A program made the position numbers and the translations under genes. 64,000 nucleotides of DNA, from NCBI RefSeq assembly GCF_024699965.1, contig NZ_JAJOMZ010000004.1, positions 2,168,001-2,232,000 on the forward strand, written 5' to 3'. Origin of the DNA: Flavobacterium sp. J372 (GTDB lineage: Bacteria > Bacteroidota > Bacteroidia > Flavobacteriales > Flavobacteriaceae). The first letter of the stretch is position 1. Each line of letters opens with the position of its first letter. The notes under the pieces are model-generated. The model was not told the origin of the DNA. It saw only the letters and a program-made list of their open reading frames with translations, and did no database searches. Positions 4,525 through 59,282 of the stretch are shown here, one piece after another.

Positions 4525-5491
4525 TTATTTCTCCTTTTGCCTTGTCAATATGGGAATGGCTTTGATGTATACCAGTTCTGAAAGTATTTCGATAATGGTC
4601 TGTGTCACAATTACCGCAGCCACAATCCTGTTTTCAGGTGCCGGAAGCGAAAGGGCTAACGGAAGCACTACAAGGGAATTCCTCGTTGCGGTGCTGAACG
4701 ATACCGCGCGGGAACCGTAATAGCCTACCCTGAAAATCATGGATGAAACCTTTCCCAGCAAAGGCGATAGAACGGCATAGGCCAGGTACACCGGCACGGC
4801 ATCCACAACGGGTGCAGTGTTTTCCTTTAAGGAAGGTACCTGTGACCCGACCACCACGAAAAAGGTCATTGCCATCGCCGGGACGGGTATCCAGCCTGAA
4901 TAATCAAGAAGCCTTTCCCCCCACCCTGTTCCTTGATTTCGCAGCCAGCTGTGTCAGCACGGATAACGAAAATGGAATCACTATAAGATACAGGAATGAT
5001 TTAACGAAAGGGGCCAATTCAATGATCTCTATTGTTTCCCTCCCAAGAAAAACAAGCATATAGATGGGCAGCAAGGCCATCTGCAGGGCAAAAAGAAGGG
5101 GTGTTGAGGCCAGCACGGATTTGTAGTCCCCTTTGCCCATGTGCGTAAATACTATCACATAATCGATACAGGGGGTTACCAATACCAAAACAATACCTAT
5201 CGCCACGGTGCTGTCAGGGGAAAATACCGTGACGAGCCCCCATACCAGGAGCGGTACAAGTATAAAGTTGCCAAAAAGCAGGGCTTTAAAGAAGGACCGG
5301 TTTTTCAGCGCACCCTTCAGCTCAAGGAAAGGGATCTGGCAGAACATACTGTAAAGCAGGATTCCGATTACCGGCTCAATCCAAGATTCCAGGCCGTGGC
5401 TGCCGGGCCAGTATATCCCAACAATGCCGCTTAGGATAAGTACAACAATATATATATAGATCTGTTGCTCTTCAAGCCACTGTTTTGTCAT
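4525..5491 (-). CDS. ACR3-like arsenite/bile-acid symporter family transporter, frame broken
   Basis: A polytopic membrane protein of about 330 aa with roughly ten hydrophobic segments. The segment VTPCIDYVIVF carries the Cys and acidic residue typical of ACR3 arsenite permeases (BASS superfamily). The N-terminal two thirds (from MTKQWLEEQQ) and the C-terminal third lie in different frames. Removing one base from the C6 run at 4917-4922 (plus strand) restores NRVGERLLDYSGWIP.... A Met at 5521 is a possible earlier start. It is the last gene of the operon starting at 9556. Arsenite efflux is the likely role, but the sulfur-handling neighbours leave other anionic substrates open. Confidence 0.75.
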
Positions 5492-5533
5492 GTTATTTTG
5501 AGTTAATGGTTCGAGGCACATGTCCCGGCTGCG

Positions 5534-7294
5534 TTAGTGCTTCCTGAAAACGCAGAAGGTAAAATTCTGCACTGTATCAAATGGGGTGCGATGGTCTGAT
5601 GCAAAGCATTCAATTGGCTCGAAACCGTCTTGGAACATCGCTTTCATTGACTTTTCGGAATATTGCCTGATATCTATACCACTACACTTTTTTGGCCCAT
5701 TCTCTGAAAATGTGCCAAGAATCAACATGCCATCAGGTGCGATTCCTGATAAAGCTGACCTTGTGTAGTTGCTGATGTCGCCCCCGGCTGTCAAAAAATG
5801 GAATGCGGCGCGGTCATGCCATATGTCGTATTTCCTTTCAGGGAGAAAATTAGCAGCATCTGATACAATCCATTTTACCTTATCGGCTTTTTCTCCAAGC
5901 CTTTCTTTTGCCCTTGCTATGGCTGCCTCAGAAATATCCAGTACCGTAATATCGGTATAGCCAAGGTTTAGCAGGTGGTCGGATAAGAAGCTGTCTCCCC
6001 CGCCCATATCAATGATGGCCGCATCTTTTGATGCAGCATACTTGGTGATCATTTCAAGTGAGGTTTCCGGTACAGGCTGGTACCAGCTTACCGATTCAAG
6101 TGATTTTGTAGTATATATATTTTCCCAATGTTCTTTTGTACTGGCTTTTTCTTCCATGTTTTTGTTGTTTTGTAGTGCACCAAGACACGTTTTTATATGA
6201 TCAATAGCTTCTTCTATTTCCTTTTCGGAGGTATAAAGTCCCAAACTGAAACGGATGGCTGTAGAGGCAACTTCTGTTGATTTACCCATTTGCAGCAATA
6301 CCGAAGATGGTGTCGCATCCCCGCTATGGCAGGCAGCTCCCGTAGAACAGGCGATCTTGGATTGCAATCCTTCAATAAGCCTGCCCATATCTAATCCCGG
6401 AAAACTGATGTTAAGCGTATTGCAAAGCTTTTCTGTAACATGCCCATTGTAGACCGCATCAGGATAGGCATCCTTAATGGCATTATGTAATTTTTCTGTA
6501 AGGGCGGTAATACCCCCAGCCTTGGCCAAGGCTGTATCAGCTGCCAGCTCACAGGCTTTGCCTAAAGCCACGATGTAAGGAACATTCTCAGTTCCTGCCC
6601 TTAATCCGTATTCGTGGCTCGCACCATGTATTAAAGACTCCAAGTTTACACCCTCTTTCACGATGAGCGCTCCAATGCCTTTAGGTGCGTATATTTTATG
6701 TCCCACAATCGTCATCAGGTCAACGCCTAACTCCTGAAAAGAAACCCTCATCTTACCTATCGCCTGCGCTGCATCAGTATGCATCAAAATTCCATTTTGG
6801 TGGGCTATCGTAGCGATTCCCTTTACAGGCTGTACTGTTCCGGTTTCATTATTAGCCAGCATTACGCTGATTAATATGGTATCATCCCGAAGGGCAGCGG
6901 TTACATCAGCCGGGTTGATCCTACCCTGCCCGTCAACCGGAATAACTGAGATGTCGTAGCCTTCTTTTTCAAGGTATGCGGCAGGTAATGAGATTGCCGG
7001 GTGCTCTACTGCAGATATTATGATGTGTTTTCCTTTATAGCGAAGGGCATGGGCGATTCCTTTAAGGGCCAGATTATTGCCCTCGCTACCGGTAGCTGTA
7101 AATATGATCTTGGCTCCCTCGGCATCCAATGACTGCGCAACAGCACGCCTTGCAGCAGCAATTGCAGATTTGGTCTTTTCTCCCAGTGCATGGACACTCG
7201 ATGGATTTCCATAATGCTGCGAAAGATAAGGCAGCATGGCTTTCAGCACTTCAGGTGCAACGGGTGTCGTGGCATTGTAATCGAGATATATCAT
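5534..7294 (-). CDS. Cysteine desulfurase / SAM methyltransferase fusion
   Basis: A 586 aa protein with two enzymes in one frame. Residues 1-375 are a class V PLP aminotransferase of the NifS/IscS type: the PLP lysine is K200 in VGHKIYAPKG and the active-site loop CSTGAACHSG holds C322. Such enzymes move sulfur from cysteine as a persulfide. Residues 380-586 are a class I SAM-dependent methyltransferase (motif I DMGGGDS, residues 429-435, then WYQPVPETSLEMI-type N-terminal signature at 404-416). The linker is QNNKN followed by a Met that would start a stand-alone methyltransferase. I see no nearby stop in other frames that would suggest an artificial join. It sits between an ArsR-rhodanese regulator and an ACR3-like transporter. 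Confidence 0.85.
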   Translation of the reverse strand: MIYLDYNATTPVAPEVLKAMLPYLSQHYGNPSSVHALGEKTKSAIAAARRAVAQSLDAEGAKIIFTATGSEGNNLALKGIAHALRYKGKHIIISAVEHPAISLPAAYLEKEGYDISVIPVDGQGRINPADVTAALRDDTILISVMLANNETGTVQPVKGIATIAHQNGILMHTDAAQAIGKMRVSFQELGVDLMTIVGHKIYAPKGIGALIVKEGVNLESLIHGASHEYGLRAGTENVPYIVALGKACELAADTALAKAGGITALTEKLHNAIKDAYPDAVYNGHVTEKLCNTLNISFPGLDMGRLIEGLQSKIACSTGAACHSGDATPSSVLLQMGKSTEVASTAIRFSLGLYTSEKEIEEAIDHIKTCLGALQNNKNMEEKASTKEHWENIYTTKSLESVSWYQPVPETSLEMITKYAASKDAAIIDMGGGDSFLSDHLLNLGYTDITVLDISEAAIARAKERLGEKADKVKWIVSDAANFLPERKYDIWHDRAAFHFLTAGGDISNYTRSALSGIAPDGMLILGTFSENGPKKCSGIDIRQYSEKSMKAMFQDGFEPIECFASDHRTPFDTVQNFTFCVFRKH

Positions 7295-7357: not shown

Positions 7358-8050
7358 CTAAACAGCCTTCTCCACGGGATAACCTTTAGACATCCAGTCA
7401 GGAAAGCCCTCAGAAAGCCTGTTGGCCTTATATCCATACTCCGTAAGTATTTTAACAGCCTGATCGGCATATATGCAAAACGGTCCACGGCAATAGGCTA
7501 TAATTTCACTTTCTTTAGACAACTCCCTGATACGCTTAATTATTTTATCGTAAGGCATCGAAAGCGCGGAATGGATATGCCCACGATTAAATTCAGCTTC
7601 CGGGCGTACATCCAGCACCAAAACTTGATTTTTACCAATTTTTTCAAGCAAATCTTCGGCAGATATTGGTGCAAGATTGTGAAAGTTCGACCTGAAATCT
7701 TTTACCAATCCTTCAATTTCCGTGTTGTTTTCCATACCTAACTCCCTAAGCGAGCGCCAGGCTGCAAAGACCTTTTCATTACGCAGGTGGTAAAAGATAA
7801 AATTTCCGTCCTTGCTGGTTTCGACCAGCTGTGCCTTTTTAAGCACCTGCAGATGCTGCGAGGCATTGGCAACGCTCATGCCGGTATAGTCTGCAATGAC
7901 CTCAACGGAAAATGGGCCCTGAGCCAAAAGATCGACTATCTCCAAACGATGCGGGTTGGCAAGGGCTTTGGAAATCTTAGCTAACTCCTGATATACTGCA
8001 TCCTTAAATTCTCTCTTATTCATTTCTGATTTCAAACTATTGTAATCCAA
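7358..8050 (-). CDS. ArsR-family regulator fused to rhodanese domain
   Basis: A 230 aa protein. Residues 20-95 form an ArsR/SmtB winged helix (ISKALANPHRLEIVDLLAQGP, then SVANASQHLQVLKKAQLV as recognition region). Residues 125-225 are a rhodanese domain with Cys187 in YCRGPFC and a second Cys192. ArsR repressors in sulfur-stress operons sense persulfides through a cysteine pair; here the rhodanese could be the sensor or deliver sulfur. A second Met at residue 10 (8023) is a plausible start. It lies 24 bases after the CstB-like gene in one operon. The likely target is the palindrome at 9595-9634. Confidence 0.87.
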   Translation of the reverse strand: MDYNSLKSEMNKREFKDAVYQELAKISKALANPHRLEIVDLLAQGPFSVEVIADYTGMSVANASQHLQVLKKAQLVETSKDGNFIFYHLRNEKVFAAWRSLRELGMENNTEIEGLVKDFRSNFHNLAPISAEDLLEKIGKNQVLVLDVRPEAEFNRGHIHSALSMPYDKIIKRIRELSKESEIIAYCRGPFCIYADQAVKILTEYGYKANRLSEGFPDWMSKGYPVEKAV

Positions 8051-8074: not shown

Positions 8075-9556
8075 TTAGTGTTTCTGCGGGCTTTCCGTTA
8101 TATCTTTAATGTCACCCAGATAAACCCTAACATCTTTATAACCATATTTTTTCAGTATGGAATAAGCCATTGCTGCGCGCGTACCACTTTTACAGTGCAC
8201 AATTATCGCCTTATCTGTTTTAATCTGTGCAAGATTGTCCTCAAGTGAGGCAAGGGCTATATTTTCTGCTCCTTTTACATGCCCTGTGTTGAACTCCGAG
8301 GATGTCCTGACATCAATGACTTTGGTTTTGGTCCCAACTGCCTTCAGCAAATCGTCACGCCCGGCGATTGAAAATTTTTCTAATTTTTGACCTTGCGCAT
8401 TTACATCGGTTATGTAACCATACATATTGTCCATTCCGATTCGCATTAGTTTACGTGTCAGGTCTTCAATTTCATCTTTATCAGCGATAAGAACATATTG
8501 CTGCTCATAATCCAATAGCCAGCCCATAAATGTCGAAAAAGATTTGCTTCCCTCGATATGAAGGCTTCCCGGTATATACCCGTTAGCCACAACTTCTTTT
8601 TTTCGCGTATCAATAATGATTAAGCCGTTTCTTTGCGCCTCACTGAATTCTTCTTTCGAAAGTTCATAGTACTTAGGAACTTCCACCAGAAGGCTGCGTG
8701 GCTCTCTGTTCCATTGCTTCATGACTGCAAAATACTTAGGTGGCTCTGGCTGGCCATCCAGTATATATTTTACAAAACCTTTTTCATCGTTGTGGAATTG
8801 GAAAGCTTTGTTAGTCGCTTTCTCAATTTTTAATGTGGATTGCGGAACACTGCTTAAAGACTTTCCGCAAAATGACCCTGCTCCATGTCCCGGCCAAATC
8901 TCCAACTCATCCGGCAATTTAGAAAAGCGCTGTAAAGACGCATACAAGGATTTAGCGCCTTTATCCTGAGACCCGATCTGGCCCGCTACTTTCTCAAGAA
9001 GATCAGGACGGCCTACATCACCCACAAAAACGAAATCCCCTGTAAAGGCTTTTTGCGGTTTATCAGAAACCGACTGGTCCATTAGGAGAAACGTAAGGCT
9101 CTCGGGAGTATGCCCGGGAGTATGCATAACGGTAAGAACTATTTCTCCCATTGATATCTTGTCTCCATCTTTAAGCGGTGAATGCGGAAATTCATAGGCC
9201 CAATTGCTGTCCGTTTCTCCGGATAACAATAATTCAGCTCCGGTTGCAGATACAAGTTCACGTGTGCCGCTAAGGAAATCCGCATGAATATGGGTTTCAG
9301 TGACTTTAGTAATTCTAAAATTATGCTTTCTGGCTATTTCTAAATAGGTATCAATATCACGCTTAGGATCAATTACAATAGCTTCCTTAGTCTGCAGATT
9401 AGCTATCAGATAACTTGTTTGTGCAAGGCTTTCGTCAAAAACACGTTCAACAAAAGCAGTCTGTGCCATGGACTTGGGGGTTGTGCCGAAAAAGGTAAAA
9501 AACAGGATAACTGCTGAAAATCTTATGGAACTCACGATATTTTTATTTGGATTCAT
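8075..9556 (-). CDS. CstB-like MBL-fold persulfide dioxygenase with two rhodanese domains
   Basis: A 493 aa protein with an N-terminal signal-like segment (residues 10-31, ending SMAQ), suggesting periplasmic export. Residues 35-260 are an ETHE1-type metallo-beta-lactamase domain: THIHAD (H89, H91, D93), HTPGH (H149), GDFVFVGD and PGHGAG (H224). Two rhodanese domains follow. The first has no Cys in its loop (IADKDE), and the second has an active Cys in VHCKSGTRAA (about residue 455). This MBL, dead rhodanese, live rhodanese order matches CstB of staphylococci, which oxidises persulfides to thiosulfate. It is first gene of its operon. The exported form is unusual. Confidence 0.87.
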   Translation of the reverse strand: MNPNKNIVSSIRFSAVILFFTFFGTTPKSMAQTAFVERVFDESLAQTSYLIANLQTKEAIVIDPKRDIDTYLEIARKHNFRITKVTETHIHADFLSGTRELVSATGAELLLSGETDSNWAYEFPHSPLKDGDKISMGEIVLTVMHTPGHTPESLTFLLMDQSVSDKPQKAFTGDFVFVGDVGRPDLLEKVAGQIGSQDKGAKSLYASLQRFSKLPDELEIWPGHGAGSFCGKSLSSVPQSTLKIEKATNKAFQFHNDEKGFVKYILDGQPEPPKYFAVMKQWNREPRSLLVEVPKYYELSKEEFSEAQRNGLIIIDTRKKEVVANGYIPGSLHIEGSKSFSTFMGWLLDYEQQYVLIADKDEIEDLTRKLMRIGMDNMYGYITDVNAQGQKLEKFSIAGRDDLLKAVGTKTKVIDVRTSSEFNTGHVKGAENIALASLEDNLAQIKTDKAIIVHCKSGTRAAMAYSILKKYGYKDVRVYLGDIKDITESPQKH

Positions 9557-9594: not shown

Positions 9595-9634
9595 ACCGTA
9601 ATCTATTCAATGTTTTTATTGAATAGATTACGGT
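9595..9634 (-). promoter_or_regulatory. 17-bp perfect inverted repeat, candidate ArsR operator
   Basis: Arms ACCGTAATCTATTCAAT and ATTGAATAGATTACGGT flank a 6-base loop, 39 bases before the start of the CstB-like gene. ATTCAAT/ATTGAAT half-sites are like those bound by ArsR/SmtB repressors. On the minus strand a T-rich tract follows, so a terminator or attenuator is the alternative. Confidence 0.5.
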
Positions 9635-10135: not shown

Positions 10136-12087
10136 CTATTGCCGAGCCAGGCGTGTGCCCTGTATACGGACGGCATTGAGTATGGCCAGCAGCGCAACAC
10201 CCACATCGGCTATTACAGCCTCCCAAAGGTTTGCCATTCCGGCTGTACCCAAAATCAGCACCAGGGCCTTTATGCCGATTGCAAGGCAGATATTCTGCCA
10301 GACGATCCTTTTGGTCAGCCTCCCGATCCTGATGGCGGAGTCTATTTTCGTAAGCCGGTCATTCTGTATCACGATATCGGCGGTCTCGATTGCTGCATCG
10401 CTGCCAAGCCCTCCCATGGCGATGCCGGTATCAGCAAGGGCGAGTACAGGGGCATCGTTTATGCCGTCTCCCACGAACGCCAGTTTCCTGCCTGAGGATT
10501 TCAGCTGTTCCAGCTTACTGACCTTGTCTTCCGGCAGCAGGTCACCGTAGGCATTGTCAATGCCCAGTTGCCGGGCTACCCTGTCTACGACAGCCTGTTT
10601 GTCTCCTGATAATATGGCTGTCGCAATGCCTTTTTATGCAGGGCTTTTATAACCGCTGCAGCGTCATCCCGGATTACGTCAGCTATCGTGATGTGCCCCG
10701 CGAATTCGCCGTCAATGGCGACCAGTACCGTTGTTTCTGTAACCTCGTCCAGCGCTGGCGGGTAAGGCACTGAATGGCTCCTGAGCAGCTTCGCATTTCC
10801 TGCCAAAACCTCTTTGCCCCCAATAGTACCTTTGAGTCCCAATCCTGGCAGCTCCCCGACATCGGCAGGCCCAGGAAAGGGAGCAATCCCATTACCGGAA
10901 GCGTACTCTACGATGGCTTTCGCCACGGGGTGGGCTGAATGCTGCTCAAGGGCACAAACGGCCCGGAGCAACGTATTTTCGTCCAACGTATAGGCATGGA
11001 TCTCACGCACTTCGAAAACACCTTTGGTAAGTGTGCCGGTCTTGTCGAAGACCACGGCCTGCACCTCGCTTATCGCATCAAGGAAGCCAGCGCCCTTAAA
11101 TAAGATGCCGTTGCGTGATGCAAGCCCTATGCCCCCGAAATAGCCCAATGGTATGGAAACCACCAGTGCGCAGGGGCAGCTGATCACTAAAAAGACCAGC
11201 GACCTGTAGGCCCATTCCCGGAAAACGTAGCCCTCGACAAACAGCGCGGGAACAAGGCAGACCAGCACTGCAAGCGCGAAGATAACCGGGGTGTACACCC
11301 TGGCGAAGCGGCTGATGAAAAGCTGTGTCCTTGATTTCCGCACCGTGGCCTCCTCCACCATCTTCAGTATGGCACTCAGCTTGCTGTCGTTATACATAGC
11401 GGTTACGGTTATAGCACAGACTTTATGCATATTGATCATCCCGGCCAGCACTGTTTCGCCCTCATACTTGGTATCAGGCTTGCTTTCTCCTGTAAGCGCT
11501 GCAGTATTAAATGCAGCACCTGAGGATGACAGGGTACCGTCGAGGCCCACCTTCTCGCCTGCTTTCACTATGATGGTTTCACCTATCCGGACCTCAGAAG
11601 GATGTACTTGCATGGTAGTGTCTGCCCGTAAGACCGTGACTACATCCGGCCGTGCGTCCAAAAGGGCGGCGATGCTCCGCTTTGCACGCCCTACAGCGGC
11701 ATCCTGGAACCATTCTCCAATGGAATAAAAGACCATCACGGCAACCCCTTCACTGTAAGAGCCCAGAACGAACGCGCCGATAGTGGCAATGCTCATAAGG
11801 AAAAACTCATTGAAGAAATCCAGCCTCAATGCCTTACGCCAGGCGAGAAGAAGCACATTGTTTCCTGACAGCAGGTAGGCTGTTAGGTACAGGAACAGGT
11901 CCAGCGGGAATTGGACTGCCCGGGAGAAGACAGACTCTAGGACAATCAGTGCCAAAAGGATTGCCAGACCCGCCAGCAGCGGCCATCGTCTTTGCAGGGC
12001 ACCGGGTACAGCTGTACCCTGTGCCTGCGGATTTGGGGCAGCGGCGGAACATCCGCCACCGTTGCCCTGGCAACATGTATCGCTCAT
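10136..12087 (-). CDS. P1B-type heavy-metal ATPase (CadA/ZntA-like), frame broken
   Basis: About 650 aa after repair. The Cys-rich N terminus (MSDTCCQGNGGGCS) replaces a full HMA domain. Landmarks in order: actuator LTGES, transmembrane metal motif SCPCALVVS, phosphorylation motif DKTGTLTKG, SAHPVA nucleotide-binding motif, then VGDGINDAPVL. The CPC motif points to Zn/Cd/Pb or Cu/Ag export. The frame breaks after residue 489; one more T in the T5 run at 10631-10635 restores HKKGIATAIL and joins the last third. The HMA protein gene lies 64 bases downstream in the same direction. The break is probably a sequence error. Confidence 0.83.
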
Positions 12088-58139: not shown

Positions 58140-59282
58140 CTAAATAGTTTTCAGGGCCTCAATCAGCAGGTCGATATCTTCTTTAGTATTATAATGACTA
58201 AAGGAAATCCGCAATGAAGGTTTTTTAAGGTCATCATCACAAAGTATTTCCTGTAATACATGAGACGGTTTTATGCTGCCCGACTGGCAAGCACTGCCAC
58301 GGCTTACGGCTACACCTTTCATATCAAGCTGGAAGAGTATCATTGAGGTCTTTTCTTCCGGCAAAGGCAGCATGACATTGGCTATGTTATAAAACAACAT
58401 CTCATGCCCCACTCCCTTGTCAGTGCCGTTTACTTTATATCCGGGGAAATGGTTATCCAGCTGCTCAAAAAGATAACCTTTAAGATTACTGATATGCTGT
58501 CTCTCAATGTCCAAATTAATGTAAGATAGCTCCAAAGCTTTGGCCATCCCCGCAATTTGGTGTACAGCTTCTGTACCGGCACGCAGGCCTTTTTCCTGCT
58601 CACCGCCTGCAATTATTGGCTGTATTCCTAAACCTTTCCTGATAAATGCAAAGCCAACACCTTTTGGCCCGTGAAATTTATGTGCACTGGCAGCAGCAAA
58701 ATCTACCGGCAAGTCTTTAAAACTTATTTTTTCTTTGCCAAAAGTTTGAACCGTATCGGTATGAAACAGCGCATTATATTGCCTGCATAAATTACCAACA
58801 GCTTGTAGGTCTAAAACAACGCCAGTTTCATTATTTATATGCATCAAGCTCACCAGCGTAGGAATATTATCTGAAAGTAACGCTTCAAGATGTGAAAGTT
58901 CCGGTTGGCCTTTACTATCAAGCCTAACCATATTGACCTGCGTGCTGAATTCTCCAGCAACAAGTGCCACAGTATTTAGCACGGCATGGTGTTCAGCACG
59001 GCTCGTGATAATTCGTTTTACGCCAAGATTTCGTACCGCACTTTGTATTACCCAACTGTCGGCTTCAGTCCCGCCTGATGTAAAGATTATCTCTCCTGCA
59101 TCTGCACCTACCAATGCGGCAATCTTCTTACGTGAAGCCTCCACAATTGTTTTAGCGCTCCTGCCAAAACTGTGTGTAGATGACGGATTACCATATGCAG
59201 ATGCCATTACTTCGGTCATTTCTGCAATCACTTCAGGCCGTAATGCAGTTGTTGATGCATTATCAAGATAAACTCTTTTCAT
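58140..59282 (-). CDS. Cysteine desulfurase (IscS/NifS family)
   Basis: A 380 aa class V PLP enzyme. N terminus VYLDNASTTALRPEVIAEM; PLP lysine in AASAHKFHGPKGVGF (about residue 201); active-site Cys in VSRGSACQSGS (about residue 330). It supplies sulfur for Fe-S clusters or tRNA thiolation. This is the chromosomal enzyme, separate from the island fusion at 5534-7294. No scaffold gene is nearby. Complete. Confidence 0.9.
   Translation of the reverse strand: MKRVYLDNASTTALRPEVIAEMTEVMASAYGNPSSTHSFGRSAKTIVEASRKKIAALVGADAGEIIFTSGGTEADSWVIQSAVRNLGVKRIITSRAEHHAVLNTVALVAGEFSTQVNMVRLDSKGQPELSHLEALLSDNIPTLVSLMHINNETGVVLDLQAVGNLCRQYNALFHTDTVQTFGKEKISFKDLPVDFAAASAHKFHGPKGVGFAFIRKGLGIQPIIAGGEQEKGLRAGTEAVHQIAGMAKALELSYINLDIERQHISNLKGYLFEQLDNHFPGYKVNGTDKGVGHEMLFYNIANVMLPLPEEKTSMILFQLDMKGVAVSRGSACQSGSIKPSHVLQEILCDDDLKKPSLRISFSHYNTKEDIDLLIEALKTI

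Follow-up and report, generated by a model that had tools for sequence, protein, structure and literature searches.

A recurrent NifS-like desulfurase-methyltransferase fusion in an ArsR-rhodanese operon of Flavobacterium sp. J372, with a possible role in the response to sulfane sulfur

The window analysed in this study, a 64,000-nucleotide stretch of the genome of Flavobacterium sp. J372 (contig NZ_JAJOMZ010000004.1, positions 2,168,001 to 2,232,000), contains a four-gene operon on the minus strand with a palindrome ahead of it. The features are given below in the order of transcription; the intergenic gaps between the four genes are 24, 63 and 12 bases.

9603..9626, no strand assigned: CTATTCAA-N8-TTGAATAG palindrome, probable operator, 46 bases upstream of the start of MBL-rhodanese
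8075..9556, minus strand: MBL-fold and rhodanese protein, 493 aa, persulfide-dioxygenase or CstB-like by its domains (Pfam, NCBIfam)
7358..8050, minus strand: ArsR-rhodanese regulator, 230 aa, TTG start, loop YCRGPFC (ORF, Pfam, NCBIfam, alignment)
5534..7294, minus strand: NifS-methyltransferase (NifS-MT) fusion gene, 586 aa (ORF, Pfam, NCBIfam, fused relatives, AlphaFold model)
6170..7294, minus strand: NifS-type desulfurase domain of the fusion, residues 1-375, with K200, catalytic C322 and then H323 (Pfam, NCBIfam, homologue alignment)
5540..6139, minus strand: class I SAM methyltransferase (MT) domain of the fusion, residues 386-585 (Pfam, profile, model)
4525..5521, minus strand: SBF/ACR3-like transporter in a split frame, 4904-5521 and 4525-4875 (ORF, Pfam, NCBIfam)

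The third gene is a single, uninterrupted and ATG-started open reading frame of 586 codons according to the ORF listing, and the original prediction that it holds an intact NifS-type enzyme (K200, C322) and an intact class I methyltransferase (motif I near residues 429-435) was borne out for both halves. Specifically, the N-terminal half matched Aminotran_5 over residues 2-361 (E 7.2e-78, Pfam) and had a complete class V aminotransferase fold with its PLP lysine and catalytic cysteine (Pfam, homologues and model); K200 and C322 were both present in 120/120 homologues, the best 120 of 7973 proteins matched by the whole fusion. The full domain, the PLP lysine and the catalytic cysteine are shared with the group I enzymes NifS and IscS, from which the window protein differs in carrying a methyltransferase, in having SelD-fused proteins among its closest homologues and in scoring below the equivalog cut-offs of NCBIfam (427.6 bits against 530.75 for NifS, TIGR03402; 350.4 bits against 643.2 for IscS, TIGR02006). 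On account of these scores the desulfurase is described here as NifS-like and not as a canonical NifS. In the C-terminal half, a Rossmann-type class I SAM methyltransferase fold and motif I were both present (Pfam, alignment, model and fold comparison). Methyltransferase domains matched within residues 422-536 (Pfam), the SAM motif was found to be D429-x-GGG-x-S435, and the window residue matched at the 30 invariant columns of an alignment of 47 MT proteins. The junction is tight, with the NifS profile match ending at residue 375 and the MT profile match beginning at residue 386, and an in-frame ATG at 6155-6157 (M380) coincides with the start of standalone MT relatives. A stop or frameshift at 6150-6170 was looked for in the assembly DNA and the frame was open there. 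The AlphaFold model of the whole fusion (pLDDT 90.3, pTM 0.68; pLDDT 95 for the MT domain) predicted that both halves are held on one long helix. Fold comparison found the MT fold to be generic, its nearest folds including a heterocyclic toxin methyltransferase of M. tuberculosis and the echinomycin disulfide-to-thioacetal enzyme.

The domains of the two upstream genes agreed with their earlier assignment as a CstB-like enzyme and an ArsR-rhodanese regulator (Pfam, NCBIfam). The MBL-rhodanese protein resembles CstB and the ETHE1-type persulfide dioxygenases in combining an MBL fold with a rhodanese, and differs from them in that 0/23 of its NCBIfam matches reached the cut-off (61.9 against 625 bits for the Blh model). 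The proposed ACR3-like transporter and export function found little backing: the longer piece of the gene scored 36.9 bits against the ACR3 model TIGR00832, below the cut-off of 282.8, the shorter piece matched no NCBIfam family, and no match to the gene was found at the related locus of Flavobacterium cheongpyeongense described below. Its frame is split near a run of C, through either decay or sequencing error, and a heavy-metal P-type ATPase gene at 10136-12087 is also split (frames 10585-12087 and 10136-10474). With two further genes of the window broken across frames, small indels or genuine decay are present in the vicinity of the fusion. Metal pumps are present in the island around the operon, and genes for PRTRC system B (just below its NCBIfam cut-off) and ThiF proteins at 1100-2574, near metal-resistance genes, were seen as pointing to a mobile element. 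A second NifS-like gene lies at 58140-59282. Contigs C5 and C6 of this genome hold near-identical copies of it, which suggests that the assembly contains duplicated or redundant contigs.

The regulator has two cysteines, C187 and C192 (counted from the TTG), both in the rhodanese loop and none in the ArsR part. Both loop cysteines were conserved in 30/30 aligned ArsR-rhodanese sequences. A further cysteine lies ahead of the loop in 21/30 (stop-to-stop frames, which may include leader sequence), and the loop therefore need not be the sole sensor. The persulfide-sensing repressors SqrR, BigR and YgaV are like the window regulator in their ArsR-family type and in the persulfide-dioxygenase-like gene of the operon, whereas the two cysteines of the window regulator lie in an added rhodanese domain; its score against the BigR equivalog NF040642 was 51.1 bits, below the cut-off of 155. 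Relatives were found at E 1e-30 in 24/395 Bacteroidota genomes, the own genome included, and 20 of the 23 loci outside it were examined with their flanks (G047, G116 and G148 being left out). Seven of these 20 had a flavoprotein, apparently of one type, within two genes; the two that were scanned matched Pyr_redox_2, with FCSD_central above its cut-off at L217 and just under it at L226. An RND pump stood at a further seven loci, one of these pumps having been scanned, and two loci had a confirmed DsrE.

The palindrome CTATTCAA-N8-TTGAATAG is probably the operator of the ArsR-rhodanese regulator, as judged from its distribution. It occurs once in the whole 3.53-Mb genome, where a reversed control pattern was not found, and in 10/348 genomes of the genus, where the control was found in two. 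At 6/10 of these sites ArsR-rhodanese is encoded no more than 1.5 kb away; in the window, where it forms the operon's second gene, the distance is 1.55 kb, so that the palindrome stands next to an operon with ArsR-rhodanese in 7/10 genomes, the window included, and at the other three sites there was no ArsR-rhodanese gene within 1.5 kb. On the far side of the palindrome from ArsR-rhodanese there are, among others, genes for a rhodanese-MBL protein and for MFS-like transporters (MFS assigned by eye). An identical palindrome precedes the cassettes of F. cheongpyeongense and of genome G602. Outside the genus, the exact palindrome was present in 0/20 ArsR-rhodanese loci; its core ATTCAA-N8-TTGAAT lies between the ArsR-rhodanese and MBL genes of the Methylocystis plasmid pGW6_1 and, with one mismatch, in Rhizobium sullae, and was found in none of the stretches examined of Streptomyces and Microvirga. 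The SqrR site is reported as ATTC-N8-GAAT (PMC9774250). Its half-sites are identical to those of the window palindrome (ATTC-N12-GAAT), and its gap is shorter. At the level of sequence, the cysteine pair of the regulator (30/30) and an ATTC/GAAT palindrome occur together at the operon, with a spacing unlike that of SqrR.

Protein searches were carried out with the whole fusion (best 120 of 7973 matches) and with the MT part alone in longer proteins (best 120 of 177, and all 27). The refuting condition named earlier, that relatives are always encoded as unlinked genes, was contradicted by fused relatives in F. cheongpyeongense and in ten further database proteins. The F. cheongpyeongense fusion (L036, 5995-7767) is 57% identical, with residues 1-585 matched. 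P0001, P0002 and P0003 match the whole fusion over 99-100% of its length, P0001 being nearly the L036 protein and counted with it. Both domains were confirmed by Pfam in P0158, P0165, P0174, P0191 (which lacks the first ~20 profile positions), P0193, P0195, P0199 and P0244, and P0148 is a further fusion with a partial NifS. This gives 12 distinct fusions, namely the window, L036, P0002, P0003 and the eight confirmed by Pfam, and NifS precedes MT in 12/12. The domain pair recurs, and in Bacteroidota it is rare: the fusion was found in 2/348 genomes of the genus, own included, and a sample of 395 Bacteroidota genomes gave a full-length match in the own genome only, among the matches listed. Genome G599, of the same genus, has a locus identical to that of F. 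cheongpyeongense over 4761 bases.

The history of the fusion was examined in trees of both domains. In a quick search with 117 of 169 MT domains (27/45 PNP-fused rows and 21/29 GNAT-fused rows were left out, as were the near-copy P0001 and three rows with too short a profile match), the NifS label required five changes, at least four of them by the starred branches; the fusion-partner labels are our reading of precomputed Pfam lists. In a NifS tree of 134 rows, also from a quick search, the fusion label required three changes, all forced. NifS-fused MT domains thus fall in at least four places of the MT tree, and the fusions in three of the NifS tree. The NifS domains of the window and F. cheongpyeongense type lie within a clade of 15 rows, 12 of which are unfused, and the unfused F. 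collinsii P0052 is sister to those of F. cheongpyeongense and P0002. In a careful 42-row tree, a single clade for the MT domains of the window, L036 and P0002 was not rejected (p-AU 0.23). From these results there would therefore have been several gains or losses overall, with a single origin of the Flavobacterium type possible. The methionine at which standalone MTs start is kept in frame in both Flavobacterium fusions, which suggests that the fusion arose by read-through of two adjacent genes; internal initiation is possible. We consider it unlikely that the fusion is an artefact. The split genes nearby, the retained ATG and the 12 unfused rows in the NifS clade would all fit a junction at which sequencing or assembly had joined two neighbouring genes, but a second species has the same fusion (57% identity), as do ten other proteins of the database, and a single clade is allowed for the three Flavobacterium-type MTs. 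Such a junction is highly improbable.

Unfused versions of the system were also found, and the gene set proved not to be fixed. The F. cheongpyeongense cassette contains no MBL-rhodanese gene. Genome G602 holds a cassette of the F. cheongpyeongense type without NifS (rhodanese-like gene 75%, ArsR-rhodanese 60% and MT 62%); its first gene was called rhodanese-like by eye, having no Pfam family and scoring 23.4 bits against an NCBIfam rhodanese model with a cut-off of 115. Plasmid modules with an unfused NifS contain ArsR-rhodanese, MBL, MFS and NifS genes and have other methyltransferases. Across eight plasmid NifS loci of the same kind (L116, L298, L299 and L302-L306, with L307 as a wider view of L304), an MBL gene was found in five, ArsR-rhodanese in three and a nucleoside phosphorylase in three. 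The Methylocystis row comprises ArsR-rhodanese, MBL, MFS, SHOCT, DsrE, NifS, a methyltransferase-phosphorylase fusion and another methyltransferase, and on Leptospirillum p49879.2 the NifS and methyltransferase genes overlap by one base. With the window MT profile, the Methylocystis methyltransferase scored 26.6 bits and the Leptospirillum one gave no match; the two are 32% identical to each other. Both are at best distant from the window MT, so that NifS has had at least two kinds of methyltransferase as its partner. In Streptomyces, the methyltransferase closest to the module was again a distant match (21.2 bits).

Standalone MT genes were found in 71/395 Bacteroidota genomes (own included) at E 1e-25. 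In a sample of 60 Bacteroidota loci, made up of 40 phylum and 20 genus matches, rhodanese was the commonest Pfam family among immediate neighbours (8/118), against 0/190 control genes four or five places away (Fisher p 4e-4, uncorrected for shared ancestry). Of the 190 control genes, 118 were scanned with Pfam, rhodanese being absent among 25 of 97 families listed; a rhodanese profile made from seven sequences, including one counted neighbour, was applied to the full 190. The rhodanese-MT pairs of L260, L267, L271 and L273 look like one orthologous pair and those of L169 and L178 like another, which reduces the count to about four independent cases. The two frames overlap by one base in L260 and L271, and the L175 neighbour is on the opposite strand. 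ArsR-type HTH domains showed no excess beside MT (HTH_20 in 2/118 neighbours against 3/118 control genes). MBL-rhodanese directly adjoins MT in G214 and G363, and a Runella plasmid row contains MBL-rhodanese, thioredoxin, a borderline TPMT-like MT, MT, cytochrome c and DsrE. Nine rhodanese-MT fusions were counted from precomputed Pfam results, of which four were checked (P0143, P0205, P0219 and P0236), and rhodaneses seem to offer this MT family an alternative means of sulfur delivery.

As judged from its domain partners, this family is promiscuous. Those confirmed by Pfam in the examples run were rhodanese, Pyr_redox-rhodanese, ArsR, TPMT, OsmC, LMWPc, radical SAM/DUF3641, a second methyltransferase and nucleoside phosphorylase, and near-full MT rows included 45 PNP-fused and 29 GNAT-fused against 13 NifS-fused and nine rhodanese-fused. 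Fusion to a nucleoside phosphorylase that reaches no NCBIfam cut-off is very frequent (P0124-P0127, P0129, P0132-P0139 and others), and a nucleoside phosphorylase also stands near NifS and a methyltransferase in Methylocystis. Ten of 58 plasmid MT records were examined. Sulfur-type names (MBL, DsrE, TauE or YeeE) stood within 4.5 kb at three loci, those of Runella, Nitrobacter and Sphingomonas. Metal-handling names (P-type ATPase, MerT, DmeF, RND/copper or heavy-metal sensors) were commoner, at six loci: Sinorhizobium, Pseudanabaena, Nitrobacter, Ruegeria, Sphingomonas and Paraburkholderia.

Both NifS and rhodanese carry protein persulfide, and for this reason a reading in terms of sulfur was preferred to the others. 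We propose, with a probability of about 0.45, that the operon responds to sulfane sulfur (persulfide or sulfide), with the NifS half supplying sulfur or selenium and the MT half methylating it. Reactive sulfur would modify the C187/C192 pair of the regulator, which would leave the palindrome and allow the operon to be expressed. The NifS half would then use cysteine (or selenocysteine) as the source of the sulfur (or selenium) that it loads onto C322, a residue on a flexible loop, and the MT half would methylate this sulfur after its release or while it is still a persulfide on C322. The product would be methanethiol or dimethyl sulfide, or the selenium analogues, able to exit the cell; by way of the fusion, reactive sulfur may thus end up methylated and possibly volatile. 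This proposal is supported by the FCSD-like flavoproteins and DsrE near the regulator homologues, the recurrent NifS-first fusion and its several places in the MT and NifS trees, the rhodanese neighbours and fusions of MT, the MBL-rhodanese genes beside it, the G602 cassette without NifS, the link between palindrome and regulator and the Methylocystis module. Counting against it are the three palindrome sites without a nearby regulator, the lack of the exact palindrome outside the genus, the distant methyltransferase of the Streptomyces module, the ArsR-type HTH domains without excess beside MT, the preponderance of metal-handling names around the plasmid copies, the small number of independent rhodanese neighbours, the promiscuity of the MT family, its ars-type row in G526, its generic fold, the cysteines ahead of the loop in many regulator homologues and the rarity of the fusion. 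A role in sulfide detoxification is opposed by the fact that a desulfurase produces more sulfide. A fuller version of the proposal, in which the fusion converts cysteine (or selenocysteine) and SAM into a volatile methylated compound by passing the C322 persulfide to the tethered MT, under a mobile ArsR-rhodanese regulon spread over Bacteroidota, Alphaproteobacteria and Streptomyces, and with the MT family providing H2S/methanethiol methylases of Bacteroidota that are yet to be described, is doubtful.

Of the other explanations, the one in which the halves are linked by shared expression alone is rather unlikely. The NifS half would here serve sulfur carriers such as rhodanese and DsrE, and MT would methylate another small molecule, for instance a xenobiotic thiol or a heterocycle. 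The many unrelated fusion partners of MT, with nucleoside phosphorylase in many relatives, would agree with this, as would the heterocyclic toxin methyltransferase and echinomycin enzyme among the nearest folds and the pTM of 0.68, which leaves the predicted domain orientation loose. It sits poorly with the repeated pairing of MT with both NifS and rhodanese, and with the finding that, in Leptospirillum and Methylocystis, a NifS of this kind adjoins distantly related methyltransferases. Selenium detoxification, with the NifS half mainly a selenocysteine lyase and MT methylating selenide to dimethyl selenide, is a near rival because the histidine that follows C322 is found at the corresponding position (H389) of the Sec-specific human selenocysteine lyase, as set out in the part of PMC3266270 on that enzyme, and because some relatives are SelD-fused. 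That histidine is present in 119/120 homologues (best 120 of 7973), five of the same 120 carry SelD domains by precomputed Pfam (P0047, P0058, P0069, P0093 and P0095), and G363 (L177, 3040-6277) has, in direct succession, a rhodanese-like gene, a broken MT and genes of SelD-like and MnmH-like type. The position that we take to be that of the decisive D146 of the human enzyme, placed by eye and unaligned to the human protein, is however proline in 119/120; no SelD above the family cut-off was found in the window's genome, and the neighbouring genes speak more of sulfur. Selenium detoxification was judged quite unlikely.

Methylation of arsenic or another thiolated metalloid, in which sulfur from NifS would form a thio-metalloid that MT methylates, appears improbable, slightly more so than a selenium function. 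One genome (G526) does have MT in an ars gene row (arsR, a 155-aa protein, MT, arsC-like and ACR3-like, named by eye), and MT is fused elsewhere to the arsenic-type domains radical SAM/DUF3641, LMWPc and ArsR, and in P0246 to a second methyltransferase that a source names arsenite methyltransferase. Metal pumps lie in the island and metal genes are common near plasmid MTs. Set against this, the transporter of the operon is weakly ACR3-like and frame-split, neither the F. cheongpyeongense nor the G602 cassette showed an arsenic gene, and the ArsR part of the window regulator has no cysteine, although 21/30 homologues have one ahead of the loop. Overall, the earlier idea of a single path of sulfur transfer, methylation and export stood in part: the fusion is real and lies in an operon, and methylation of sulfur or selenium is the most economical idea, whereas the metalloid and export parts were weak.

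In the passages of PMC12904073 that describe them, MddH, MddM1 and MddM2 are SAM-dependent H2S and methanethiol S-methyltransferases with a proposed role in sulfur-gas detoxification. Compared by description, the window MT is like them in being of class I type and about 200 residues long (MddM1 210, MddM2 204); it differs in its setting, as the words 'rhodanese', 'operon' and 'gene cluster' are absent from the main text of PMC12904073, and its passages on these enzymes name no desulfurase fusion. The original remark that no described system with this gene set was known agreed with the literature searched, chiefly outside subscription journals, which gave no recognised description of a desulfurase-methyltransferase fusion or of this ArsR-rhodanese regulon. 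Sulfide S-methyltransferases as such have already been described (PMC12904073). The MT family, present in 71/395 Bacteroidota genomes and with several ties to sulfur-transfer proteins, is a concrete candidate. The operon supplies a testable sensor, ArsR-rhodanese, with a defined putative operator, and it makes the direct methylation of a protein-bound persulfide accessible to experiment.
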